A stretch of 64,000 nucleotides of DNA from Albula goreensis. Taxonomy: Eukaryota; Chordata; Actinopteri; Albuliformes; Albulidae. Position numbers and translations under genes: made by a program. Positions 3,001 to 45,700 of the stretch are shown here, in pieces. The notes under the pieces were generated by a model that worked only from the letters and a program-made list of their open reading frames with translations, was not told the DNA's origin and ran no database searches. Each line of letters starts with the position of its first letter. The stretch's first letter is position 1. The stretch is from NCBI GenBank assembly GCA_022829145.1, contig CM040742.1, forward strand, positions 12,371,131-12,435,130, read 5' to 3'.

Positions 3001-3713
3001 CAGTCGTCATGGCGCAGTAATCAATCTAAGTGTCTTAATTCCATTAGCGTGACATTGTTATGGAGCTTAGGGCACAATTTATATTGCATGCTACTATTTT
3101 TGCTCTCCAGGACAGGTTCTTTTTGCTGTTTGAAACCGCCTTTGAGTGATCCAAAATTGAGGGTTGAATACTAATCCTTCTTTTCCCTGTTTGGTTTTGA
3201 GGGGAAGAAGGCAGTGAGCAGTGCAAGGGTGGCTGGCAGTGTTGGCTGGTTTTTGCTTTTTCCGTTCTGGTCATCGGTTGTGTAATAAATTGTTGTTACT
3301 GAGTTAGTCACTAATGCTGAAACAGGCTGTTGAGATTTGAAGGAACCAATGCCTTTTAGAGAGAAAATATGTTGAAGTAGCAACAGCTAGTATAATCCAC
3401 AATTATAGCATGCCCATATAAACTCAGTAATACTTTACTGAGCTATGTGTAGTAGCACATGATGTTGTTTTTTTTTTTTTTTTTTTTTTTGTAAGTTTCA
3501 AACCAAGACATGAAAAAACCAGCCTGTTAATAGGTTGATACATCCTATGGTCAAACCTATTTTTTTCAGATTTGTGTCAGGGCTGGGAGTGGGTGTGTCA
3601 CATTTTAAGTTCCTTTTTAGTGTCAGCAGGCGCCCCCTGCTGGATGTCTGTGATAACAGCTTGTGTTATATGTGCTGTCCTGCTTCTCCTATTCCAACCT
3701 CCCTGCTGCGTAG
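1..3713 (+). other. flot2: flot2 upstream intron (left end of window)
   Basis: No exon is recognisable here. The N-terminal flotillin-2 segment (start MGNC, then the GGWAWAWW stretch) should precede the first exon seen, but I cannot find codons for it, so those exons lie left of the window. The stretch holds A/T-rich sequence, an AAAT-type simple repeat near 1188-1227 and T tracts near 710 and 3468-3490. A less AT-rich block at about 1360-1580 has an open frame of no family I know. Confidence 0.7.
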
Positions 3714-3804
3714 ACTGTCACTGGAGATTATGACCATCCTCTGTCGCTGCGAGAATATCGAAACCTCGGAGGGTGTACCCTTGGATGTCACAGGGGTCGC
3801 TCAG
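3714..3804 (+). CDS. flot2: flot2 alternative exon 'a'
   Basis: 91-nt exon with acceptor tgcgtag and donor gtaatg. It completes an Arg codon and then encodes 30 residues containing [20 protein letters not shown]. It is homologous to the exon at 4474-4564: 19 of 31 residues are identical, counting the shared Arg. From memory it matches the form usual in zebrafish Flot2a. It has an extra Cys (LCRC) that the other version lacks. Confidence 0.93.
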
Positions 3805-3920
3805 GTAATGAAACTGCAAAAAAAAAAAAAAAAAAACCAACCTTGTACCCAATGGGGTCATGTGGGTGGGGCCGAAAAAAACAACAAACAAACAAACACG
3901 AGTCTAACTTTGAGTGCCTC

Positions 3921-3951
<31 letters not shown>

Positions 3952-6900
3952 GTTATTTTTCCTGTCTAACTCATGACTGACTCCCTTCTGCAGCAAAGGG
4001 AGGGACGGACACTTTCACTAACCCTTTCTTGCCTCTTGACTCGGCTCACGCTTTGTTGGCATCTTCACCCCAAGTGCTTTTGGCAACAGGGCCTGGGAAT
4101 GTTTTGCTAGGAAAAAGCCATGGCAATCTAATGCCCTCCACCACCACCAATAATAATAATAAAAAACTATCACACAGATTTACAGAAAATAATGAAGTGA
4201 CAATTGGTGGCACCTCGGCAATGGATTGAGAAGTCTCTGTTTAAAAAAAAAAAAAAATAAATAAAAAAATTCCAGGAGCATTCCATTGTCTTGATCTTGT
4301 TGTGAACGCACTTGGAGGGGACCTCTAAGGTTTTTGGCGTGAAGATTTTTGTTCTTTCTTTCATTCTGATTATTATTTTTTCCCCTTTTAAAGGTAGTCT
4401 TTGGTCCATTTATTTTCTTTAATTTTTTTTTTCACTTTATCTGGAACATGCCAATTTCTTACGTTCTCCACAGGATTACCCTTGAGATAATGACCCTGCA
4501 GCCCAAGTGTGAGGATGTAGAGACAGCGGAGGGGGTAGCTATTACTGTCACTGGGGTGGCTCAGGTAAATCCTCACCTTCTGGGAATGCCTACTTCAGCT
4601 CAGCCGTGCCCAGTCTCCCCACAGACCAGTTAATGGGCGAATGAGGTTTCATGGCAACGGAACCAAATGGGCGGAGCTACTGTACCTTTCCAGCCAGGCT
4701 GGACATATGAAGGTTTCGATGGCTGATGTAACAGATGTGTAAATCTTGTTTCTCACTAGCCCCCAAAACATAGAACAAACACAGCCAAAGAAAGAACAAC
4801 ATGCAATGAAACAACATTAAATCCCAATATAAACTCTTTCTGTGGGAAATCCCGTTACTTAAATGGAGATTAATATGCTATGTGTTGATTAAAACATATA
4901 ATTACCTTGTTTATAACTTTGTGTCTATATAGAGCTTTAATGCCCTCTTAGTGCTTGTCATCTGGTCTTTGGCTGTATTCAGTCAGCATTTCGCAGGCCA
5001 GTGAGAGAAAAATTTTCATATCTGTTATGTCTCTGTCCCAACCTGTATATGTTTGATTTAGGTTACCAGCAAGGTTGACAAACCCTGCCAATGTTTTTGT
5101 TCCACCCATACACTAAACTGGGTGATTCCAGTTCGCTCAACTCTTCATCCAAGTAGGGGAGCTAAGTACAGAAATCAGCTGGATTAGTGCCTGGGTAGAA
5201 CAAAAACATGGTGGTGCGTCTTTTCTCTGATGCCAGGGTTCTCTCACCCCTGGTTTTAAGGACTTGACTGAATGGAAGCAGTCGTTGTATTTTGTCTGAG
5301 GAGAGCAAAACCCTCTTGACTGGTTCAACAGTGTCAGTGTTTGATAGCTCATCCCACCATTTTTGGGATTCATGAAACCTCATTCTACCATCCCTACTAC
5401 AGACCTCCAGGAAATAATTACTGCAGGGGTCCCCTAAACCTAGTCCTGGGGTACCCCTGTGTGTGCTGGTTTTCATTTCAACCAATCTCCTACTCCGTTA
5501 AGGTTTTTTTTTGTTTTTTTTTTTTTCCTTTTCCTCCTTAAATGTATTTTAGACACAAGGTGGCAGGTAGGGTTCACTGGTATTTGTTTTGGCTTTCAAC
5601 TGTTTTAAATAAATAATGGTTAAAACAATGATTTAACAAGGTACAAGTTAACTAGGTATCAGCATTTCAGACTTCACTGATTTCAGCTGTAGGACTATGC
5701 ATAATGAATGCAACCTCTTTGTAAAGGAATCAGTCACCACTGCACCTGACTAAAATGTAATTTCTGTAAACTGATTTAACTGATTAAGAGTCCTGAAATG
5801 AGGAATGTGGAATGTTCATTCTAAGTAATGCTGTTGGTAAATCATCCATCAGTGAACATGTAAAGAAGGTAAAAGCAGTTTCAACAGCTCTTGGTAGTTC
5901 AGGAATTGGGATTATGGTTGTATGGAAAACCAGCATACACAGAGAGTACCTCAAGATTGAGGTTGGTAACCCCTGTCTTATACATAGCGGAATCAGTGTT
6001 TTTCCACATGCGCGCACACACACTCACACACCACAGTAAAGGTAAATTATTCTCCAAAATGCATCATATTCTCAAACTAATCTTTACCTTTGGAAAACCT
6101 TTTAGCAGGGTACTTTGACCTACACTGTATTTGCAAAATGGTAGAGCTGTAGATACAATGTATCATTATTTTAACTGTGAAAATATGTAATATGTAGAAT
6201 GCAGGGTGTGCTGGTAGCCTTTGATCAGCAGTAGCAAATCACACTGATTTTGAATTTTATGTTACCTTTAAAGTTCAATGTGTATGTCCCTGACAAAAAA
6301 ACACAGGAGGTATATGAGAGTTTAAATTGTTGTAATATATGATTTTAAATTACATTGGCATTGATTATTATACTTTTGGGGGATAGGTTTAGTGAGGGAA
6401 CACATTTAAAAATGTCACAATAATGAAATGGCACAGCTTGATTTGGTAAACAGGATGCTGCGAACATGAGTTTCCAGAGTCATTGACCTTCCACACACTT
6501 TGGTTTTTTTTTTTTTTTTTTTTGTTATTCAAAATTTTTTTTTTTTTTTTTCAAGTTCACAATAGTTCACACTTGGATGGCAGGGGAAGGGTAGGATGGA
6601 ACTGGAGGGTCTGAGCTGTGTTTCTGCATCCAAACATTGTATCACCATAATCTCTCCCTATGCTTTTTTGTTGTCCCTGTGCCAAGATTTGCAGTGTGTT
6701 GAAGACAATGAGCCATCTTACTGAAATGATCAAGTTGAAGCACACACTTTTTTTTTGAAAATCAAACTTCTTATATGAGCTATCTTTAGCTACTTAAGGT
6801 ATTAAGTCCTTCTTGCACTGTATCATATTTTCACTCTGAAATAAATTCATACAGACACCTTTTCAGTACCACAAAAATATGATGAATATGTTTAGTGGGT

Positions 6901-9900: not shown

Positions 9901-12900
9901 AAGGTATTATTTGGCTCTTCCTGTAGCTAACCTCACCTAGGAGTAATAGCAGAGTCATTGTCAATGCCATTTCAGACTGCAGTCCTCGAGAGCTGCAGCA
10001 TCTCCTGGTTTTTGGTGTGCTTCTGCATTGAAGTGATTGATGAAAGTCCTCGATTGGCTAAAGCATCCAAACACCCTGTTTCCAACGTCTACATGGGTTG
10101 CTGATTGAAAACTAATCAACAAAAACAAACCTATAGGAACTGCATTCCTCCTGGACTGTATTTTGAGATCTCTGATGTAAAACAGGAGCTGCCAGGCCTG
10201 TTAATATAGGGTGCTGTAGGGTGTGCTGGTTGCTCACCCCTGGTGTAAATGGTGCCCAACACTGCAGGCCCGCAAGACTCTAGTCCCTCTGCACAGTATT
10301 AAACCACTGCATTAGTGTTTTGTGTGAATACCTGATACTCTGAAGTAATGTTTTAAACATGTCATTTAATGGCCTTGGTGGTTACACTGATAATACAAAT
10401 GAATTTCCCCCTTGGAGTGCCATATGTTTAAAAACTAGGCCACACTCTGGAAGAACACTCACTTCAATCAGTCACTTAGCTATATAATAAAACTGTGAAA
10501 CATTAACCTAGATTATTCTGGAAAAATAATCACTTGGAAACAAAACACATGGATGTAGTGGACCAACAACAGCAGAATCCCCCATATTACATATGCTGTG
10601 TAACAGTTCTAAGACTGCAGACTGCAGGATTTGGTTCTTGTTTTTTTTTTCCTTTTCCAGATTTAAGTTTTCATTGCTAATGACCTAGTTTCGTCTCACC
10701 AGGTCAAAGTCATGACGGACCAAGATCTGCTGGGAGTTGCCTGTGAGCAGTTTTTGGGTAAATCTGTGTTGGAGATCAAAAGCGTAGTCCTGCAGACCCT
10801 GGAGGGACATCTGCGCTCCATCCTGGGTGAGCAAATTTCAGCTGAAAACGACCTGCTCTTAAGGCCCCTCCATACTTTAGACAAACCATATTTGCCTGCT
10901 CCAGCCATTTAAACTTATTTTTTGCAGTGCATTGCTCAAGTAATGCCTATTTAAATGCAAGTTGACAATTATTTTAAAGAGGTATGTTGCAAATTCTTTT
11001 GGTTAAAATTTCACGTCAGCTTTCAGACAACCGCCATTCTCGGTGGTGTTAGTGTCTCTGAGGTTCTGCTGTATATCTGTGATGTACTGCAGTACATCGC
11101 TTCCCATATCGGTCTGTAGACTAAGACCTCCTGCTGCAGTTGTGTAGAATTTGGGAAGATCCCCTGACCCTTGACCTATGTTGAATCCAGGCACACTGAC
11201 AGTAGAGCAGATCTACCAGGACAGGGACCAGTTTGCCAGGCTGGTGCGGGAGGTGGCGGCTCCAGACGTGGGCCGGATGGGCATCGAGATCCTCAGCTTC
11301 ACCATCAAGGTATGTGTGGGCGTCACCAAGGAAATGCTAGGCATCCAGCTCCCTGTCGCACTTGGTTCTGGGAGGAGAGAGTGATCAGTCTGTCCTCTTT
11401 CTGTATTTTATCCCCTTAATCCTGTGTTTTTTTAGACGGTAGGAGAGTTTAGAGCATGTTGGATGAAGAGGGAGCAGAGATACATTCACACCCTGACTAT
11501 GCTTGGGATGTGGGAACTGCTTTTTCCCCTTGAATTATGACAAGCTGTTAAATGTATGTAATTTAGCAGCTGTCAACATCTTGGGAGATGATTTACTGTT
11601 AATGATCATTGAATGTGTGCCCTTTGTCCACCTTGCAGGACGTCTATGATAAGGTTGACTACCTGAGCTCACTGGGGAAGACGCAGACGGCCGCAGTCCA
11701 GAGAGATGCTGACATTGGAGTGGCAGAAGCAGAGAGAGATGCAGGAATCCGGGTACGGTAACCACAGGAACAAATCCCAGTATCTCATTGGTCCTGATTA
11801 TTCCAGATTAATTCAGATATACAGATTTTTTGAGACCCTAGATGTCTTAGTCAGAGGCAGAGGACTGAGTACATCATAGTTGTATTGGCTCAGTGAGGTT
11901 TTACATCTGATAAAGATTTATTCCTCTCTTGTCTCCCTTTGTAGGAAGCTGAGTGCAAGAAAGAGATGATGGACGTCAAGTTTAAGGCTGACACCAAGAT
12001 GGCCGATTCCAAGCGAGAACTGGAAATGCAGATAGCCGCCTTCAACCAGGAAGTGAACACCATGGTAACTGAAGTGGGGGAAATAAAAAAAAAACAAAAA
12101 CCCTGTTTAATTTTTACTGTTACCATAAAAAATGAAAATACTATTTAACATTACACTAACATCAAATGTAAGTTAACATGCTCATACACGCACACGCACC
12201 CCGACACACATGTGCAAACACACACACATCAAACCAATGAGTGTGACCCCTGTGCGCTTCCCCTGGCTTACATGCTGATCTATCTCTCGCTCCTGTAACA
12301 GAAAGCTGAGGCCCAGCTTGCCTACGAGCTGCAGGCAGCCAAGGAGCAGCAGAAGATCCGGCAGGAGGAGATTGAGATTGAGGTGGTGCAGAGAAAGAAG
12401 CAGATCACCATTGAGGAGAAGGAGATCCTCAGGACGGACAAGGAGCTGGTGGCAACAGTCAAGCGGCCAGCTGAGGCTGAGGCTTACAAGATGGAGCAGC
12501 TGGCCGAGGGACAGAAGTAGGTTTCCCAGAATGCCTTTCAAAGAACCCATCATAATTACCATGCTAACGTTAGCATTGCGTAGGCTTGCATCTTCCAGCA
12601 GTAAGCCTTTGGGGAAAGCAAAAATGCAAATGCAACCCACCCCCACCCACAGCCTCCAGGGCCAGGTTTTCCCACTCTTGCTTCCTTGCTGCACCCTTCA
12701 AAATTGCACTGGGGTTGAATGAGCCTCTGAAAGGTGTGTGCTGGAGTTGTGTGGTGAAAGATGTATGAATTCCAGTGTATGTTTACTAGATGTCAAATCA
12801 GAGAGTGAACATCTGGAAAACAGACTTTTTTTTGCCAAAGGTTGCCTACGAGCTTATTACCTCCCTTAGATTTCAAAGCAAAGCTGGTTGGCTCAGAAAA

Positions 12901-14175
12901 GTTTAGTCTGCATGTTTTCCAAGAGGACTGCCTTCACATGGAGTCCTGATGAGATGATAACTTCGTCAGAAGTAGTAACTCAGCATTATTTTAGTTGCAA
13001 AGAACATCCCCACAGCAAGGTGGTGTTATGCCTCAATGAAGACAGTAGTTTGTCATAGTTATTGGCCTGTAGTTGTGACATCATAATCCCAAGTTTGAAA
13101 AATGAAGCCAGGAAGAATGTAACCACCTATTAACCCCTCTCCCTCAAATTCCTTTACTCTTCCTGTTTTCACCAGGATAAAGAGGGTGCTGACGGCCCAG
13201 GCCGAGGCGGAGAAGATCCGGAAAATAGGCGAGGCTGAGGCCGAATCCATTGAGGCGGTGGGGAAGGCAGAAGCCGAGAAGATGAGGCTGAAGGCCGAGG
13301 CCTACCAGCAGTATGGCGAGGCAGCCAAGACTGCGCTGGTCCTGGAGGCTCTGCCCAAGGTACTTGGGGCCCTTGTTCCCAATTTTGGCTGCTTATTCAA
13401 AGGAAACTGCATAACCTGATGAAACTAAAGTCCTCCCTGTCTAGTGATAGAGAGCTTGATGCTCTTATTTTAGAGGCAGTTAATTGGCTTTATATACACA
13501 TCTCCAGCTTCACTCTTATTTTAAATCACAGCAAAACATGTCATTTAGGAATGCTAGAGCAGTTTACAGCTGTGATTTGTGACATAAAATGAGGCTTATT
13601 TAAATAACTAAGAGGCATGTACAGTTGTTCTTGGCCAACCCCCTGCCTTAACAGTATCTTGTGGAAGGCCCTGTTAAACCTCAGCTGTGTCCCCACAGAT
13701 TGCGGGCAAGGTGGCAGCACCCCTGGCCAGGACCAACGAGATCGTGATCCTGAGCGGTGAGGGCAGCCGCGTGACTGGAGAGGTGACCCGCCTGCTGGCT
13801 GAGCTGCCCGTGTCTGTCAACGCCCTCACCGGCGTGGACCTGTCCAAGGTGAGAGAGGCTTGGAATCCGCTTCTACACGCACATACTCAAGACAAATGAA
13901 CATGTGCACGCGCGTGCGCACACATACACACACACAGACTCAGTGCTTCATTGGTTCAGGAAATTCTATTGTAATTGTGGTTATGTAGTTTGCTGAAACC
14001 GTGTTGTCTGGTAGCACTGCATTGTTTGTCTTTTCTAAGAGCTTTACGCCATATTTACCCATGAACTAGCTCCACTGATTTCTGTCAAATCCTGTCTCTA
14101 ACCCTCAACCTGTTATTTTTCTTTATAATACAACAGATTCCCTTGCTGCAGAAGATGACCAATCCTCAAGCATGA
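3714..14175 (+). CDS. flot2: flotillin-2 (reggie-1), 3' part of gene; 5' exons off the window
   Basis: Scaffold protein of cholesterol-rich membrane microdomains. It forms hetero-oligomers with flotillin-1 on the cytosolic face of plasma membrane and endosomes. Coding exons seen: 3714-3804 or 4474-4564 (alternatives), 10703-10826, 11191-11309, 11639-11752, 11945-12064, 12302-12516, 13176-13359, 13699-13848, 14137-14175. All introns are GT-AG and phases agree. With one alternative exon the visible part encodes 384 residues; with the 44 upstream residues of the human protein this gives 428, the usual length. The first part is the SPFH/PHB domain ([31 protein letters not shown]). It is followed by the flotillin coiled coil rich in EA/AE pairs ([19 protein letters not shown]) and the end [13 protein letters not shown]-terminal acylation sites are not in view. 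An odd residue is Met at the end of the 11945-12064 exon, where other flotillins have Lys or Thr. The large introns carry MITE-like repeats. Confidence 0.97.
3919..3952. repeat. (TG)n microsatellite between the flot2 alternative exons
   Basis: About 16 TG units with one CG interruption, 115 nt after the exon a donor, on the sense strand of flot2. Confidence 0.95.
4474..4564 (+). CDS. flot2: flot2 alternative exon 'b'
   Basis: 91-nt exon with acceptor ctccacag and donor gtaaat. It has the same phase and length as exon a, 669 nt downstream of it. It encodes [20 protein letters not shown] and then [10 protein letters not shown], close to the mammalian flotillin-2 sequence as I recall it. Including both exons (182 nt) or neither breaks the frame, so each mRNA should carry exactly one. 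Confidence 0.93.
5423..5978. mobile_element. MITE-like element with terminal inverted repeats
   Basis: The left end (5423-5485: gcaggggtcccctaaacc, then gtgtgctggttttcatttca) reappears in reverse complement at the right end (5916-5978). The two ends align over about 60 bp with roughly three quarters of bases equal. The interior has no coding capacity. This fits a non-autonomous DNA transposon; the exact boundaries and target-site duplication were not resolved. Confidence 0.6.
8143..8868. mobile_element. second MITE-like element related to the one at 5.4 kb
   Basis: The left end holds ctgtgtatgctgggttttgt (about 8162-8181). The right end, about 8823-8868, holds the reverse complement (aaaccagcatacacagagg). 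It is non-coding; the interior may be composite. Confidence 0.5.
10703..10826 (+). CDS. flot2: flot2 exon (SPFH domain)
   Basis: Acceptor tctcaccag, donor gtgagc; 124 nt. Encodes [20 protein letters not shown] and on to [10 protein letters not shown], a core part of the SPFH fold. Confidence 0.96.
11191..11309 (+). CDS. flot2: flot2 exon (SPFH domain)
   Basis: Acceptor gaatccag, donor gtatgt; 119 nt. Encodes [18 protein letters not shown] and [20 protein letters not shown]. Confidence 0.96.
11639..11752 (+). CDS. flot2: flot2 exon
   Basis: Acceptor ccttgcag, donor gtacgg; 114 nt = 38 codons, [16 protein letters not shown] to [10 protein letters not shown]. This is the end of the SPFH domain and the start of the helical region. 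Confidence 0.96.
11945..12064 (+). CDS. flot2: flot2 exon (coiled coil)
   Basis: Acceptor ttgtag, donor gtaact; 120 nt = 40 codons, [18 protein letters not shown] to FNQEVNTM. The terminal Met replaces the Lys or Thr seen in relatives. Confidence 0.95.
12302..12516 (+). CDS. flot2: flot2 exon (coiled coil)
   Basis: Acceptor tgtaacag, donor gtaggt inside a Lys codon; 215 nt. Encodes [18 protein letters not shown], then [13 protein letters not shown] and [15 protein letters not shown]. Confidence 0.95.
13176..13359 (+). CDS. flot2: flot2 exon (EA-rich coiled coil)
   Basis: Acceptor ttcaccag, donor gtactt; 184 nt. Encodes [20 protein letters not shown] to ALVLEALPK, including the EAEAE-type repeats that drive flotillin oligomerisation. 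Confidence 0.96.
13699..13848 (+). CDS. flot2: flot2 exon
   Basis: Acceptor ccccacag, donor gtgaga; 150 nt = 50 codons, [18 protein letters not shown] to LTGVDLSK. It is distinctly GC-rich compared with the flanking introns. Confidence 0.96.
14137..14175 (+). CDS. flot2: flot2 terminal coding exon
   Basis: Acceptor atacaacag; encodes [12 protein letters not shown] then TGA at 14173-14175. Confidence 0.95.
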   Translation: MPLLQKMTNPQA

Positions 14176-19303: not shown

Positions 19304-19967
19304 TCATTTCCCAGCAAACTCGTTGGCATAGAAGTCGAGAAGGGGTGCTTTGTAAGGGTACTCCATGAGGGATGGAGCCACTCTGGGATCAGCGTGTGTG
19401 TGGCTGTGGCTGTTGTTCTGATATCCCAGCATGCTTTGCAATGGCAGGTACTCGCCACTGGGGTCTGGAGGTGGCTGGTAGGTCTGTGAGAGAAGGGCCT
19501 CCTTGCCCAGCGCCAGGGGTGGCCATCCTGATTGGACCTGTGGATGCTTCCCTGGGCTCCCTTCTCGTCTCCCCCTGATCCGGTTCAAGATGTCCACTAG
19601 GGGGCGGGGCTGTCCACTGGGGTCAGAAGTCGAAGGTGACGACGTCATCTCCAGGCTCCTCAGAGCACTTTCGGTGAAGTGGACCCTGCTGACTTTCGGG
19701 GGGTATGGAAGAGAGTACTCTAGCTGCTGATGGACTTCCTCTTTCTTCGTCGCCACTGCTGCTGCTGCCGCACTGGCCTCCAAGATGGCCGCCGGGAGGC
19801 TGGCTCCAGGCCGCTGTGGTTGACCCTGGGAGTGCAGGCTCTGGGGGAGCCTTGGGAGGCCTCCGCCCAGCTGGCTCTCTGAAGTCTGGCTGTGGGCGGG
19901 CTGTCTGGTTAGAGGCACAATGCCATTCGGGAGGCGTGCAGGCGGCCTGGCTTCATAGTGACCAGAG
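19304..19967 (-). CDS. tbx16: T-box gene terminal exon 9
   Basis: 664 nt; acceptor TTCTTACAG; TGA at 19306-19304. Encodes [19 protein letters not shown], an Ala/Pro/Gln-rich stretch ([15 protein letters not shown]), [17 protein letters not shown], and the C-terminal [14 protein letters not shown]. It is likely the transactivation region. Confidence 0.93.
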
Positions 19968-22900
19968 CTGTAAGAACCAAAAGGACAAGGTTTCTGAGCA
20001 GCAGGCTTTATGTGGGAAAACTCAGGAAGGATAAAACCCCAAGCTCACCTAGCATGGCTAGGATAATACATTTGCTTACTGCAAACAACCAAAAAGGGAT
20101 TCAGAGTAAAGATAACGGGTAGGTCCATACAGAAAACAGCCATTAAAGCAACGACTTCTATTTATTACTGTTACCTTGGCAACAACACTTAAGACCAACA
20201 TATTTTCAAGGTGACCATTCAGTTTCAGTTCACTTGACACTCATTGACATGAAGACAAACATAACCACACAAAAGTGGTTAAACCACTGTTTTAACGGCA
20301 CATTTCATGCTGGTGTCATGTGGTTGCAATTAAGGTCAAGGTGGAAGAAACAATGCAATGTGAAATTTATAACTTAATGAATCCAGCCCTGTTTGGTTTG
20401 ATTTCTTCCACTATAATTTTCAGTAAAAAAAGTACAAACTCAACAGTGGTAATAGTGGTAAATTTGCCCTTAAAAGGCAAAACTGACCCTAGAACAACAG
20501 CCTAATTTATGCCTGTATCCATGAAGAGTCTCAGAGTACGAGGACTGATCTAGGATCAGCCTTGCTTTTCAGCTAATAATGAATTAAATGACAATGAGAA
20601 CAGAGCAAAACTGATCTCAGAAATTCACATGACAAACCAGCACTTTGTCCCCTCCGAACTGAAGTGAAACTTTCCAAACAGATGTGAAACTGATTCCAAG
20701 CTGCACGAGTCACATGTTGCCTAGACCTCTGGAGGACCACAAAGCCCACACTGCAGGCACTGCAACTGTCGAGGGGACAAACGCCCACACACCCAACATG
20801 CACCTCCACTCCATGCCCACTGGAGGCTCCAGAAGCACCTGAGCACAGTGCAGGGCTGGGGTTCTCGTACCTGGTGGAGGGTGTAGTAGGGAGTGTGTCT
20901 TGGCCGTTGGGGTACTTCAGGCCCTCGGCCCACTCTTCCAGGCTGCCGGCCGTATCCGCTGCACCCCGGTTCATGAATGCGGAGATGAAGGGGTTCAGGG
21001 CCGCCTCGATCTCCACCTGATACCCTGACCCATGGGCGTCTCCTGAGCTGGACACTGTGAGGTCTGCCCCATCACCTGTGTCTAACGTTTTTCTTATTGC
21101 TAAATAGAGAGAGAGAGAAAGACAGAGAGAGGAAATAATGAGAATACCCTTCAAAGGCTCATTCTAGCCAAACCTAACTCCTGATTTCACTTGAAGAAAT
21201 GCTCATGAAATGGAAGCAGAGAGTGGTGAGGTTGGAAGTTATTACCCAGTAATCTTACAAGCAGTATAGCTAATTCACATGTGTAATGTAATGTGTGCAC
21301 AGATATGTGTCACGACAGGCGAGGAACCTTTTAGGAAGAAAACTTCTTATGGCCAAAGAACATGCATGAGAGGGGAGAGACCAAAGTTGTGTCTTACTGT
21401 CAAAAATAATGTGCGGTGTACACAACAACTGCTTTCACTATAGAAAGTGACAGATGTCTGCAACTCTACACATGGTACAGGCTGCCATCTGCTGACCTCC
21501 CTGCCCATCACTTTTTATTTTCCCCTGAGGAAAAAGTAGTCAGGATCAATGTCTGGAATCTGTGGGCATCTATCAGACTGCAGGGAGCCAAGGCCAGAAA
21601 AGTCAATGTTTTTCAGATGATATATCAGCTGAGAGACTGAGTGAGTCTCTACATTCAGACTAAGCTATGGACAATCCAGTCACACTTCATCTGCCCTTTA
21701 ATTGTGGATTTACTCAACAGAATCCAACAGCTAAACAGAACAGTCACACATTGGAGAAAATCCAGGTCAAATTCACACTGGGCTGTGGCCTAGCATTGAA
21801 ATGAGAACATTCCCCAAATGTTTTAAAAACACTACACCGTTCTGTCTGGTCTCTGAAGCTCACAGGCAAAGATTCCAGGCCAATGAAATTCACCAAAGAG
21901 TTACCAAGGAAACTGGACTAATGTGTCCCTTTGCCCTAATTCTCTGTTCTGTGAAACAATCTTCCATGAACCATACATTGTTAGCTGGGGTCAGGCACTG
22001 CATATATATTTACTATGATGTCATCAGTCAGTAATTAGCCACTGGGTCCAGCCAAAGGGGCATTCCCAAAGGACGCCATACAGCAGTCCATACACAGGAC
22101 TCCATTAATAGCCTCAGTGCTGTTTTTGGCTAAATGGACAGTACCATCAGGGCTTTTGGGTGCCGTTTCAGGGGGACTTCCTGTAGGCCGTTTACTGCTG
22201 GAGCTCTGGATTGGCCTCTCCCTCTGCCTGTAAAAGAATGAATGAAAACAGTTCAACACCAGAGCCACACATGCAGAACAAGCCACTATAGCTTCTCCCT
22301 GACGTGTTTCATCATGAGCAACTGAAATAAAAATAATTGGTAAACATAAAAAAATGTTAACCCCTAAAATAAGGTGACATATCATTAACATTATATGTAA
22401 ACAAATATCATTGTATTACAATTAGGGAATTATATCTGACTTAAAGGTTTTACTGACATCTTTTGGATGTATTTAATTCACTGTGTATTCCAAACCGTGT
22501 AAAGATAATAAGCATATACATTTATGACTGATGATAACTGATCAAATGACAATTTTTAGTAATTCATCTTATCCAAAATATTTAGCTACATGTATTATTA
22601 TTTTTATTATTTTTTTTAATCAGGGTTCATGTACCCATTTGATTGAACTGGTCAAAAGTAGGACAGTCCATATATGCATGCTACCAAACCCTGTGTCCCC
22701 ACCACTTATTCTTCACTCCAGTGTGAAGAATATCAATGGCCTGAACCAGGATGTAATCCAGGATGTATGAAACACAATGAAACACAATGAAACATAATGA
22801 AACATAATGTGACCTCTTCCACCAGAGGAAACTGCATCGCCTCTTAATTACAGACCAGAGTTCCTGTGATGATATTTCTTCAGTATAAACCATTCCATTT

Positions 22901-25900
22901 TTCAAAATGTATATTACCTCTTACTGTTCAGGCCATTATCACGGAAACCTTTGGCAAATGGGTTGTTGTCTATCTTGAGTTTCGTTATCTAAAAAACATA
23001 AATGCATACATACATGTATGATTATAAGATCAGAATGATTAAAAAAACAGGGTAAGATAATCAGAATGTGAACAAAATGTACAAATTTATGGCTCCAATA
23101 CAACATATTTTATATAATGCTATGTATACAAAGAAACCAGTTCTGTTGACACTGTAAACTTTTATTACCACAGTAAAATATAAAAATTAAAATAAGTTAA
23201 TTTCACACCATGAATTACTGAAAAGACCCTGACCTCAAATCATTTTTGGCCACTAGAGGGCAGTAGATATAAAAGAAAAACTTCTGTGTGAATCTGTTCC
23301 TATGGATTACAGTGCAGGTCCATTATTTAAATGACCAAATACATTCCTTTCTTTGTTTTTTCTTTATGACTACACCTACTCATCTTAACATCAACTTCCT
23401 GCCCATTTCTGTCTGGGCAAGCAGTAAAGTACATTTTTTTTTATTCAGACAGTAGGAAAGCTGAGAGGGTTACAGAAGGGAGGAGGCATGGATGGAAGGG
23501 CTGGAGCCAGCACTTGAGCCCCAGTCTCCCAGAGATTGGTATGTGGATGAGACAGCTGCTCAGCAGACTGAGCTATCAGGTCTCCCCACTTTTAAGGAAA
23601 TGGGCTTGCTAATTTAGAGGCTCTGGGTTTGAATCCCAGGGGGGCACTGACATTGCACCCTCGGGAATGACAGAGAACCTCAATTGCTATCAACTGGTAC
23701 GCATTATAGGCTGGGTTTTGTTTTTAACTGAAATTTCAAAGGAAATTTTGAGCCAAGAAAACAGGTTAGGAGAGTTATCTGTGAAATCAACCATTTTAAT
23801 TGGTAAATTAGGTACTGAATCACACCAAAAAAACAGCATATAATGTTGGGCTCTCCAGGACCAGGACTGAAGACAACCAGTGTGACTAAATGCCAAAGGC
23901 TGCAGTGTGTGCCTGTGCTCCAGTACCTCAGAGTTCTGGTAGGCCGTGACAGCGATGAAAGCCGCCTCAGGGAAGGTGAAGCGTAGGTAGCCCCCAGAGT
24001 GAGGCACACGGGGGTCCGCTGTCTGGACGATGTGCAGCCGGGGCTGGTACTTGTGCATGGAATGGAGGATCACCTGCAACACGTCACACAGTGGCCTTTA
24101 GTAACCGCGGCAACAGCCATAATGATCTACACTTCACTCTATTCAGAATGCTGAAGCTAAGCAGCTACATAATCTCTGTACCATTCTCATGCAAAACCCC
24201 TGAGGCTAAGCAGTCGTAGCAGCCCGTCCCCAGTTCATCTGCTGAAGCTAAGCAGCAATGCTGCCCTTTACCCTAAAGTCAAACTGCTGAAGCTAAAGGT
24301 TTGAGAATCTGGCTTACAGCTCTGTCAGTTTTAATTCCAACATCAAGCACTGCATTACTCTTGAGCAAAGCACTTAATCCACAATTGCTTCAGTAAATAT
24401 CCAGCTGTATAAATGGACTTCATTAAAACAAAACAACACCAATGCAACATGCAAATTACTCCAGACAAAGATGTAAAATGTAAACCCGCTAAATGTGGAT
24501 TGAATTTGCTCAACACAAGTGTACGTTACATTTTGTAATAGTTTTCAGCAAAATGCAACAGTCACATCAATATAAAATAAACAAGATCAAAATTTTATAT
24601 GTGCAGGTGGTGGAAGGAAACCCCCTGGGGACTGCAGACCCTCCATTTTAATCCATTTTGAAAATAAATGAGATGTATCTGCCTGAGTAAAGCCACCAGT
24701 AAATGGCACACAGATAAATCCAGTATCTGTGTGCCCCCTGGCTGCCTTTCTGAGAGAACACAGGTCACTCAAAACTCATGAGTCAGCAGTTTTTCTTTTT
24801 TTCTGATGATAAACACACTGCTTGGCTGCTATGCCAAGCAGAACTGGGTCTAATTATTTAAAATACTTTACAGGCCAACTTGACTTGCAATATATGAGGT
24901 CCTGTAGTTTGAAAATGGTGTGTGTGAACCAATGAATCAAGCCCAAAAATTGACATTTCAGTGAAAATGTGAGTTTTTTGGCCATAAAAGTCCATTTTCC
25001 CAAGTGCCACAATAATTGTTCATATATATATTACAAATGTGCTGTAGCTATACTTTCTGTAAAGTTACTGAGCAAATGATCAAGCAACTACTTCAGTGAA
25101 CTCCTGCATCACCACCTCCTGTTTCCATGTCTCACCATTTCTCTGAGTGAAAGACTAAGATGCACAACCAATGGAACCAGTCACACTCTTATTGTATTTC
25201 AAGGGGTGACGTCACAATCAGTAGAGGACAGTCGTGCACAAGCAGAAGTCTTTTAACTCCCCACCAACACAAAATGACCTCTCAGCCCTCTGTTTGACCT
25301 TGTGACCAGCATGTGCCTGTACAGAGTCACTATCTACAGCTCTGTGACAGACCTCAGAACAAAGAAATAAAAGCAGGTCTTTCTATCAGGTGAGATATTT
25401 CCTGGGTAACGGGATATCGGCGTATTCCCCAGGCTGGGGCCTCGTTTTCCTGCTGATGCTGGCAAGATGGAGGTCCATAACTCACAGGGATTAGTGTCCC
25501 GTCTCTGCGCACGCGCCTCCGCCCTCTCTCTCACCCTCTCACCCTCTGTCTGGATGACAGGAAACTGCGACTTGGTGTTATACTTTCCTGAGGCCTCTTC
25601 TGCAGCTCTAACACTCAGTTCTGTTTGCTCCCCCTCCCCACCCCCTCAGTCCCTGCAGCGTAACAGTGATATAGGGGCTTAATCCAAAAGCTCAGCCCCT
25701 TCAGCTCAAAGCACATTATAACACATTGGCTTCCTTAAAGAAATGCAGACACAAAAAAGCCCCTGTGCAATATGCAGTAAGGTTGGAGCTCTCTGCATTT
25801 AGCTCTCTTACAGAAGTCTTGATAAACAGTATGCTCTGCTGTGGGGTTCAGTTTGTAGGTGAGAAGTACATCAAGCTGCATGTTACTTGGGATCAGTGGA

Positions 25901-34211: not shown

Positions 34212-34297
34212 TTGTGCTCTGGAGAGGATATCATCATATACTGTAAGTTTGTTATAGTGACACTACAGTATAGATGATGTACTATCCAGGGCCACAT
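34212..34297 (+). ncRNA. mir144: microRNA precursor mir-144
   Basis: The 5p arm at 34226-34247 (ggatatcatcatatactgta plus ag) and the 3p arm at 34264-34283 (tacagtatagatgatgtact) match miR-144 as I know it in vertebrates. Flanks tgtgctctgga and tccagggccaca pair to extend the stem. The 16-nt loop is between the arms. Erythroid microRNA; in fish it is reported to act on haemoglobin and klfd-linked targets. Confidence 0.96.
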
Positions 34298-43800: not shown

Positions 43801-45700
43801 CAGCAGTATTCTGCGGTTTCCTGTCAATCAGCAGCCAATTCAGGCCTCAGAAACAAGGTGTGTGTGGGACTCTTGAGCCAATGAATGACTTCCATTAAAC
43901 ACTGAGCGCTGAGGCCCACCATAAAACTAGCAGACAATGCAGCTCTCCAAGAGTACAAAGACTCCAAGACTGAAGTCTGATGCAAGTCAGATAAAAGGGA
44001 ACCATGTAATGCACAGATGGGTTGAGTGCTTTATTAAAATCAACTGTAACTCTCTTGTTTTGGTATGTTTTATGGGGTCTGCTAAATTGTAACAAGAGGA
44101 AAAAAATACCATTCAGGCCAAAATATAATTAATGTCAATAATTTTAATAAGTAAACATACAATTTGGGTGTCATCTTCTGTGAGGACTCCCTGAGCTCGG
44201 GACCTGGTCGTGTGAACTTTGTTTGATACAGCAAACACCTGTGGAAAAATAACATTCATTGCTTTGCATTTGAAAACATGAGAACAAGGTTCTGCTTTTA
44301 AACATGCAACTGTTATGCAGAAATGATTAACGGTTGTTTTATGAGTCATTAATCTAAGACAAGACAGAAATTCTGCATGTACTGTGAATAGAATTAAGTG
44401 CACCTTTCTTCCAAGAAGCTGGTTGGACAAAGTTGACTTCCCTGCGTTTGGTAGACCAATGATAGCCACTTTCAATATCTTTGAGTTTTCAGGTTGGTCT
44501 GGATGGTTAACCAGCAACGACATTTGCTCAGCTGAAAAAGAAGCGAGTTTTACTTGGACTTTACATTGCTAGTGGAAAAAAACTGTACAGATCACCGCCG
44601 TTCCAATACTTCATTGTTATTTATTTTTCATTATCAGATATAAATCATGAAGAATTTGTTTCTCTTTGCCACTGTTTTAAATATACATTAATCCAGACGT
44701 AATAACTGTATGCATTCGTATTATGCGAATAAACAATAAGAGTAGAATATTGAACATTTGTATAGGCAATATTGGTAATGAAATACTTTGCATTCCCTCA
44801 AATATGTTAGGATCTGTTGAAAACTGTGATAGATAAATGTGAAAACAAATAACAGCCACGTCCGCTCCTTATGTAGATCAGAGCTGTTCCTCTGAAACAC
44901 CGAGATTACCGTTGTCAGGCGGAACCGAGGCAGGGTAGTGACAAAGGCTGTCATGCGTTTCTGTCGCTTTGCCTTTCAGTAGCATTCCCGAAACCGCCTC
45001 CGATGCAATAAAACAGACCGGAGTGAAGTGAAGACCAATTTGTCCACCCGTCTTCAAACGGCCGACACCACCTCCTGATCCAGAGCAAGACATTGACAAC
45101 AAAAGCAGGTAATGTGATAGTCAGTCACCCACTCTCATAATCTTCTAGATATTGAAGAAGAAAGAAAATTAACAGCAAATTAGAACTAGAACAAAAGGAA
45201 CACCATCATGCATGAAGGGAAGTTAGCTAGATAGCTAGCAAACAAGTAAGCTAGCAGGCACGTGGGTATGCAGTAACCCTATCGACATAATAACACAGCA
45301 AGCTTTGCTGCTTATTTTTGAAATTTCATTAATTTCGTACATACTATTAAATAAAATTCGTTATTAATTTGTTAGTCAGCAAACTATGCAGCAAGTAAAA
45401 TAGAGAATGTGTTCTCAAATATGACTGTCTTGACAGATAGCTATCCTGCTACTTAGCAACTAGCAACAGCATTCCCCCAACGTAGAATAACAGGTAGCTA
45501 ACTGGATAACTAATTTAACACAGTCGTTTTCACAATTTTGCTGTCGACGGCTATACAGCTACTGCTGCCCGTGATTTCAGCAACTGACCTGAGATTGTGT
45601 TGAGCAACCATGACGCATTTTCACCTGGTGCAGCTGTGTGTACTTTAACAGAACATCGCATAGATTGTCGGAGAAAGGTATTGCAAAATCGCAGCGCCAT
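37652..45700 (-). CDS. eral1: ERAL1, mitochondrial Era-like GTPase / 12S rRNA chaperone
   Basis: Binds the 3' end of mitochondrial 12S rRNA and assists small mitoribosomal subunit assembly (family knowledge). Eleven minus-strand coding exons: 45700-45589, 45074-44910, 44531-44404, 44238-44161, 43680-43634, 43500-43439, 42849-42737, 41779-41450, 41015-40866, 40507-40427, 37774-37652. They join in phase to 462 aa (human about 437). An N-terminal Arg-rich, acid-free presequence-like segment ([20 protein letters not shown]) fits mitochondrial import. G1 is GLPNAGKST (118-126), G3 DTPG (165-168), G4 NKVD (234-237, split by an intron). The C-terminal KH domain has the GxxG loop as GQAG (427-430). 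Exon 8 carries a charged insert between ERAL1-typical VVNGKK and [12 protein letters not shown]. The ATG at 45700 was preferred over one at 45093 because it supplies the targeting sequence and joins in the right phase. Confidence 0.95.
38655..39240 (+). repeat. tandem array of a SINE-head unit (about 48 bp, about 12 copies)
   Basis: Units of 'gtgtagtataatggttaggg', then 'agctgggcttgtagctcaga' and 'ggttaca', with internal deletions. It lies in the last eral1 intron. The array runs into a SINE body at 39240-39330 ('cttcagcaagggacttaacc', 'attacttcagtaagttgcc'). Confidence 0.9.
39240..39330 (+). mobile_element. SINE body fragment following the array
   Basis: It continues the expected SINE sequence after the head, so the array above is an internal expansion of one insertion. 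Confidence 0.55.
39926..40356. repeat. 37-bp minisatellite (about 11-12 copies)
   Basis: The unit is 'ctgcagccctccaggactgg' plus 'agttaaacctgcagaca', with shortened variants. Its reverse complement equals the start of the dispersed repeat 'tcaaactccagtcctggagg'. It lies in the last eral1 intron, about 70 bp from exon 10. Confidence 0.92.
40427..40507 (-). CDS. eral1: eral1 exon 10
   Basis: 81 nt = 27 codons; acceptor TATTGCAG, donor [26 protein letters not shown] and VKKETHM; first part of the KH domain. Confidence 0.93.
40803..40829. repeat. (TG)n microsatellite in eral1 intron 9
   Basis: About 12 TG units, some 40 nt past the exon 9 donor. Confidence 0.8.
40866..41015 (-). CDS. eral1: eral1 exon 9
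   Basis: 150 nt = 50 codons; acceptor TGTCCCTCAG, donor [26 protein letters not shown] to [17 protein letters not shown]; the REKLL..L..EVPY block is characteristic of Era just before the KH domain. Confidence 0.96.
41450..41779 (-). CDS. eral1: eral1 exon 8
   Basis: 330 nt = 110 codons; acceptor CTCCTAG, donor [26 protein letters not shown], then a Lys/Glu/Arg-rich insert ([20 protein letters not shown]) and [18 protein letters not shown]. Bacterial Era lacks this insert. Confidence 0.94.
41960..42090 (+). mobile_element. SINE 3' fragment
   Basis: 'cttaatcaaggtacttcacc', 'gaattgcttaggtaaatatc', then the tail 'gttctggataggaatgtttg' and 'ttaaatgcttaaatg'. It lies in eral1 intron 7. Confidence 0.55.
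42737..42849 (-). CDS. eral1: eral1 exon 7 (G4 motif)
   Basis: 113 nt; acceptor AATGCAG, donor [26 protein letters not shown] to [10 protein letters not shown] is completed to NKVD by exon 8. Confidence 0.95.
42890..43375. repeat. tandem array of the CTGATC..GATCAG repeat (about 4 copies)
   Basis: Four diverged units of about 115-120 bp. Each has an imperfect palindrome (tgatctggtatcag, tgatcctggatcag, tgatctgggatcgg, tgatcccagatcag) with 'taatggataag' and 'ctcctac..gagat..tatgaatac' segments. It lies in the eral1 intron between exons 6 and 7. Confidence 0.8.
43439..43500 (-). CDS. eral1: eral1 exon 6
   Basis: 62 nt; acceptor CTTTCAG, donor [26 protein letters not shown]. Confidence 0.93.
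43634..43680 (-). CDS. eral1: eral1 exon 5 (G3 motif)
   Basis: 47 nt; acceptor CCTGTAG, donor GTCACT (weak beyond GT). [15 protein letters not shown] plus the start of an Arg codon; DTPG is G3. Confidence 0.92.
43755..43980 (+). repeat. dispersed fish repeat ('ggggtgtcaaacttcagtcc')
   Basis: 'caggggtgtcaaacttcagt', 'cctgcagggctgcgacgtca', 'ctgcggtttcctgtcaatca' match the repeat whose end was amplified at 39.93-40.36 kb. It lies in an eral1 intron. Confidence 0.6.
44161..44238 (-). CDS. eral1: eral1 exon 4
   Basis: 78 nt = 26 codons; acceptor TTCCACAG, donor [26 protein letters not shown] and EDDTQI; the TTR stretch is the G2/effector region of Era. Confidence 0.95.
44404..44531 (-). CDS. 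eral1: eral1 exon 3 (P-loop)
   Basis: 128 nt; acceptor CTTTTTCAG, donor GTGCAC. Encodes [20 protein letters not shown], then [22 protein letters not shown]. Carries the Walker A/G1 motif. Confidence 0.96.
44910..45074 (-). CDS. eral1: eral1 exon 2
   Basis: 165 nt; acceptor GGATCAG, donor GTAATC. Encodes [15 protein letters not shown] to [10 protein letters not shown]. It is poorly conserved, so its boundaries rest on phase and splice motifs. The same frame contains an upstream ATG at 45093-45091 that could start a shorter, non-mitochondrial form. Confidence 0.75.
45589..45700 (-). CDS. eral1: eral1 exon 1 (mitochondrial targeting sequence)
   Basis: ATG 45700-45698, donor GTCAGT. 112 nt encode [20 protein letters not shown] and then [17 protein letters not shown] plus the first base of Gly. 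Four Arg and one Lys with no acidic residue before position 27 fit a presequence. An alternative donor (GTGAAA after CACCAG) keeps the same phase. Confidence 0.78.

Follow-up and report, generated by a model that had tools for sequence, protein, structure and literature searches.

An old tandem exon duplication that appears to give flotillin-2 an either-or splice choice within its SPFH1 domain in the fish Albula goreensis

Tandem-duplicated, mutually exclusive exons have been catalogued in human genes on a considerable scale: one set comprises 236 substitution events (PMC9741552) and another 1,399 MXEs, in which 377 clusters (60%) contain exon lengths that are not divisible by three (Hatje et al., PMC5740500), so that an exon length that imposes exclusivity through the reading frame is a common feature. 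As to flotillin-2 itself, knockdown of rbfox1 in zebrafish increased the inclusion of a flot2a exon in the heart and led to its almost complete exclusion in whole fish, the exon being left unnamed in the accessible text (PMC4541041); in mouse, a study of Qki-regulated alternative exons lists Flot2 in one of its gene-ontology tables, with no exon pair named in the sections available (PMC6429586); and, in sepsis, human FLOT2 transcripts switch, FLOT2 being filed in the respective table under exon skipping, not under mutually exclusive exons, and here, too, the sections available identify no such pair (PMC9205547).

The stretch of DNA considered here (the window) comprises 64,000 nucleotides of the Albula goreensis genome (contig 2, 12371131-12435130). 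The searches covered the whole assembly (932 Mb in 208 contigs) and scored the best candidates only, so that all counts of places given below are lower bounds. In the window, the flot2 gene possesses two versions of its third exon, 3a (3714..3804, plus strand) and 3b (4474..4564, plus strand), each of 91 nt, which are separated by an intron of 669 nt (3805..4473, plus strand, GT...AG). Both exons have GT-AG flanks and equal phase, the first exon base completing a split codon, and both encode residues 45-74; the peptides read from whole codons are identical at 18 of the 30 residues, and the DNA at 58 of the 91 nucleotides. That two homologous tandem exons of 91 nt occupy these positions had been put forward in a first-pass annotation of the sequence and stands as to coordinates, lengths, flanks and phase, and its count of 19 identical residues among 31 is reproduced once the common split codon is included. 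This codon, which had been taken for Arg, is in fact Lys in the window gene (AAA with 3a, AAG with 3b), as exon 2 ends with ...CAA AA. By simple counts over a small sample of 30 codons, the two exons differ by 14 synonymous changes at 22.3 sites (pS 0.63) and by 18 nonsynonymous changes at 67.7 sites (pN 0.27), the lower nonsynonymous proportion indicating constraint on the protein even between 3a and 3b. The proposed gain of a cysteine by form a is borne out and falls on position 54, form a having Leu53-Cys54 and form b Gln53-Pro54. Elsewhere, the window contains a mir-144 precursor (34216-34294, plus strand, 92.3 bits), the sole Rfam family reaching its gathering score in the window, as well as, on the minus strand (44116-44568), an open frame with a GTPase-like stretch, which we presume might be ERAL1.

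The 5' end of flot2 lies outside the window, exons 1 and 2 being located at L002:1382-1430 and L002:9169-9250, where L002 is the 10 kb directly upstream of it. Exon 4, with the acceptor common to 3a and 3b, is at 10703..10826 and is followed in the joined gene model by exons 5 (11191..11309), 6 (11639..11752), 7 (11945..12064), 8 (12302..12516), 9 (13176..13359) and 10 (13699..13848), all on the plus strand; exon 11 (14137..14175, plus strand), coding to the stop, was recognised as a pattern after an AG and was read alone, unjoined to the others. Exons 1-10, when joined in silico with either 3a or 3b, give 416 open codons, to which exon 11 would add 12 residues and the stop, for a total of 428 residues. 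The N-terminus reads MGNC, and a query of 155 N-terminal residues scores 126 bits against flotillin-1 chains but reaches 305 and 288 bits with the two longer chains of flotillin-2. The initial suggestion that the pair is frame-exclusive proves correct in silico: a single 3a or 3b preserves the flotillin-2 frame, whereas 3a and 3b together run into a stop at codon 78, inside 3b, and the absence of both leads to a stop at codon 48, in exon 4. In the joined list of exons, these stops are 958 and 866 nt, respectively, upstream of the last junction. Transcripts with a stop well upstream of the last junction are, as a rule, subject to decay, so that, at these distances, decay of the joint and skip products is to be expected.

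The frame dictates which products would be useful and does not by itself explain how the choice would be made. Steric exclusion appears unlikely, given the length of the intron between 3a and 3b. The nearest upstream AG is 54 and 76 nt away for the two exons, neither distance being unusual. The donors score 7.7 (3a) and 9.1 (3b) on a rough scale based on a frequency matrix; both values are within the range of the nine other donors of the gene (5.6-10.6), and the difference between them was discarded as an explanation. A poly-U tract upstream of 3a (3468-3490) and a poly-A tract downstream of it (3818-3836) can pair (first-listed arms of 28 nt, 89%), and the segment 3460-3850 folds with a z of -3.57 (0 of 100 shuffles as good), but, with the homopolymers left out (3491-3817), z is -0.73 and 28 of 100 shuffles are as good; the fold signal thus comes from the homopolymers, and an RNA structure around 3a was rejected. 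The sequence motifs of splicing factors were given no weight either: ACTAAC, which we take to be the Quaking core, occurs once in the 3a-3b intron, at 4017, and in none of the four other stretches scanned; the 11 TGTGTG matches in the same intron all belong to one TG repeat; and GCATG, presumably the Rbfox core, shows no enrichment over the window (122 on both strands versus 156 expected). Comparison of the exon 2-exon 4 region with that of the other flot2 gene in this genome (see below) yields five matches: one each at exon 2, 3b and exon 4, one that pairs 3a with 3b, and an intronic one; the 3b match reaches about 58 nt into the acceptor region, the sole intronic match is weak (E 0.14), and nothing there accounts for exclusivity.

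Thus, no device enforcing exclusivity was found in the intron length, the upstream AGs, the RNA folding or the GT-AG ends of the splice sites. With crowding unlikely, ordinary GT-AG ends and AGs nearby, what is left is a regulated choice by splicing factors combined with decay of the wrong products. The same lack of a mechanical device speaks for an alternative that we consider possible, if not likely, namely that 3a and 3b are independently regulated cassettes and that exclusivity is only the outcome of the decay of all other combinations; the zebrafish result, in which one flot2a exon is either included or excluded (PMC4541041), points the same way. However, of the 377 human clusters that contain exon lengths other than a multiple of three, only 83 (22%) had joining reads (Hatje et al., PMC5740500), which argues against independent use of such exons.

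A mutually exclusive pair has to be judged also by the proteins it would specify. In a protein search against PDB chains, 3a is closest to 9bq2_A and 3b to 1win_A and 9l3g_a, all of which are named flotillin-2. The chains 9bq2_A and 9l3g_a, which are deposited chains and not proteins of this fish, are identical over residues 1-402 except inside 45-74, that is, within the exon 3 segment, and correspond to form a and form b, respectively; the 9l3g_a sequence is, we assume, that of human flotillin-2. The like-with-like identity is 28/30 for 3a with 9bq2_A and 27/30 for 3b with the 9l3g_a/1win_A segment, as compared to cross-form identities of 21/30 (fish a and 9l3g_a), 17/30 (fish b and 9bq2_A) and 20/30 (9bq2_A and 9l3g_a). 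Eight of the 12 differences between the fish forms are class-diagnostic (a/b: L/I45, I/L52, L/Q53, C/P54, N/D58, I/V59, S/A62 and P/A66), being shared with the two PDB chains; the clusters of differences described earlier need correcting in that the K at position 55, the I at 67 and the D at 68 do not set the two classes apart. Fish and PDB forms of what is the same protein depart from each other, within a class, at fish residues 46, 49, 55, 67 and 68, and the split codon is Lys in the window flot2 and Arg in both PDB chains; the comparison over residues 45-74 is one of fish exons with protein chains. As for the provenance of form a, the source of 9BQ2 was HEK293 GnTl- cells without exogenous genes expressed, and the atomic model is said to hold 'except for the SPFH1 domains' (PMC11260169), so that the form-a letters in 9BQ2 may stem from a database record and not from the density; neither 'isoform' nor 'splice' occurs in the main text of that paper.

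Since an independent origin of the two forms would need to repeat eight states, the simple reading of the comparison of the fish genes with the PDB chains is that the exon duplication probably predates the split between the ray-finned fish and the tetrapod (mammalian) lineages, and the either-or splice choice would then appear to be old and conserved, not a fish novelty. The class-specific conservation also bears on the possibility that the frame-breaking length of the exons is an expression switch, with joint and skip transcripts decaying and thereby lowering flot2, besides or instead of any choice of isoform. The stops at codons 78 and 48, as far upstream of the last junction as they are, would suit such a switch; but both peptides are conserved according to their class, which suggests that the residues themselves are important, whereas a pure poison exon could do without such conservation, and we find this explanation rather improbable.

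Returning to the mutually exclusive pair, we can ask how it is distributed over the genome. As a query, exon 3a retrieves at least five scored places with E<=10, namely its own position, 3b (E 1.1e-4), a flot2 gene on contig 11 (E 1.1e-4) and two more places, on contigs 3 and 20 (E 3.4 and 7.1), with flotillin-1-like translations; exon 3b retrieves the same five (again, at least five). The likeness of 3a and 3b is not due to chance. No third copy of exon 3 was found in the window or in the 30 kb upstream of it, the next best match (E 0.038) being 40% identical and containing an in-frame stop, and each of the two flotillin-1-like exons is the only one of its kind found within the 3-kb stretch around it. 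The second flot2 gene, on the minus strand of contig 11 at 17.68 Mb, matches 10 of the 11 coding exons in order, with no exon 11 among the matches listed. It has a single exon 3, of type b, which is identical to the window 3b in 30/30 residues and 81/91 nucleotides: the whole codons differ by 9 synonymous changes and by no nonsynonymous one, in addition to one change in the split codon, which is Arg on contig 11 and Lys in the window. In the 30 kb examined around this gene, there is no recognisable form a, the best other match (E 0.16) being a simple repeat. As both types are older, to judge from the PDB chains, we read this as a loss of 3a in the contig-11 copy, and, with b present and no a to be found there, the either-or choice appears to be confined to one gene copy in this fish.

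In the seven exons compared between the two flot2 genes, pS ranges from 0.29 to 0.81 per exon, two exons being saturated. Pieces of a T-box gene, recognised by eye, are located at 19307-24097 of the window on the minus strand, and one T-box exon (contig 2, 12395057-12395203), used as a query, has at least 29 scored places, three of these on contig 11 (2.7, 9.48 and 9.52 Mb). None is near 17.68 Mb, so the idea that the contig-11 flot2 could be recognised by its T-box neighbour as a copy from the teleost whole-genome duplication was dropped, and it is the divergence that has to date the flot2 gene duplication.

The absence of a findable 3a from the contig-11 flot2 suggests that 3a is dispensable in at least one copy and might, therefore, be taken to mean that one of the two exons in the window has fallen out of use and is a duplicate in decay. 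This is very unlikely: both exons retain GT-AG sites and open frames, each is at least 90% identical to its PDB counterpart (27/30 and 28/30), and the nonsynonymous proportion between 3a and 3b is below the synonymous one. The weakest proposal starts from the remark in the first-pass annotation that form b resembles the mammalian sequence and form a the usual fish one; it holds that the exons encode a mammal-type and a fish-type flotillin-2, the second exon being recent in fish, and can practically be dismissed, given that both forms are found in PDB flotillin-2 chains otherwise identical over 1-402, that the like-with-like identity (27-28/30) is far above the 18/30 between the fish forms, and that the other flot2 of the same genome has 3b with no 3a found.

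Taking all these data into account, we are highly confident that 3a and 3b go back to an ancient tandem duplication and form a mutually exclusive exon pair in flotillin-2, and the most likely role of this pair would be to tune the membrane-facing SPFH1 domain, the exclusive use at the RNA level being what we infer from the gene. Against this reading stand the filing of human FLOT2 under exon skipping (PMC9205547) and the zebrafish data, which concern the inclusion or exclusion of one exon (PMC4541041). The scenario would be as follows. Either 3a or 3b would be joined to exon 2 on one side and to exon 4 on the other, resulting in two predicted isoforms of equal length that would differ only in SPFH1 residues 45-74. 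Splicing in this fish would be exclusive, with double-inclusion and skip products removed by nonsense-mediated decay, and the choice would be made by tissue-specific splicing factors, Rbfox and Quaking being candidates suggested by the papers cited above, in which the exon is not named. The switch between Leu53-Cys54 in form a and Gln53-Pro54 in form b might then tune the membrane face of the flotillin cage.

The SPFH1 domains enter one membrane leaflet and bear hydrophobic and cysteine residues, some of which are palmitoylated (PMC11260169), and, with domains that penetrate a leaflet, an effect of splicing on membrane contact is plausible. It is therefore a fair guess that the 3a/3b switch alters membrane contact or lipidation. 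Going further, it can be speculated, although we regard this as doubtful, that the position of the flotillin cage in the membrane depends on which exon is used, with Leu53-Cys54 replacing Gln53-Pro54 and Cys54 as a further candidate for lipidation, and that one flot2 of this fish keeps the choice while the other is fixed on b. If so, splicing would allow cells to adjust membrane contact or curvature, and 9BQ2 and 9L3G would represent different flotillin-2 isoforms. More generally, flotillin-2 is perhaps being studied as if its gene gave a single protein: should both isoforms be made across vertebrates, the outcome of knock-down, tagging and structural studies would depend on the exon present. 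The eight class-defining residues, being few, are positions at which a role in membrane attachment or assembly could readily be tested.

The two protein forms of flotillin-2 as such are not a discovery of this work because they are already in deposited sequences. In a literature search that covered main texts, none of the papers listed dealt with mutually exclusive exons of flotillin-2 as such; neither 'FLOT' nor 'flotillin' occurs in the main texts of PMC9741552 and PMC5740500, and the accessible portions of PMC12155273, PMC9457691 and PMC10078796 contain nothing on the flot2 3a/3b pair. Nor did this search turn up a description of the fish exon pair or of the apparent loss of 3a in the second gene.

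The kind of system, by comparison, is an ordinary one, in which exons duplicated in tandem long ago are spliced in an either-or manner. The human tandem-duplicated mutually exclusive exons (PMC9741552, PMC5740500) are likewise adjacent and homologous, of equal length and phase, and located within a folded domain; the flot2 pair resembles them in these features, its length of 91 nt not being a multiple of three, and its exclusivity is here predicted from the genomic sequence.
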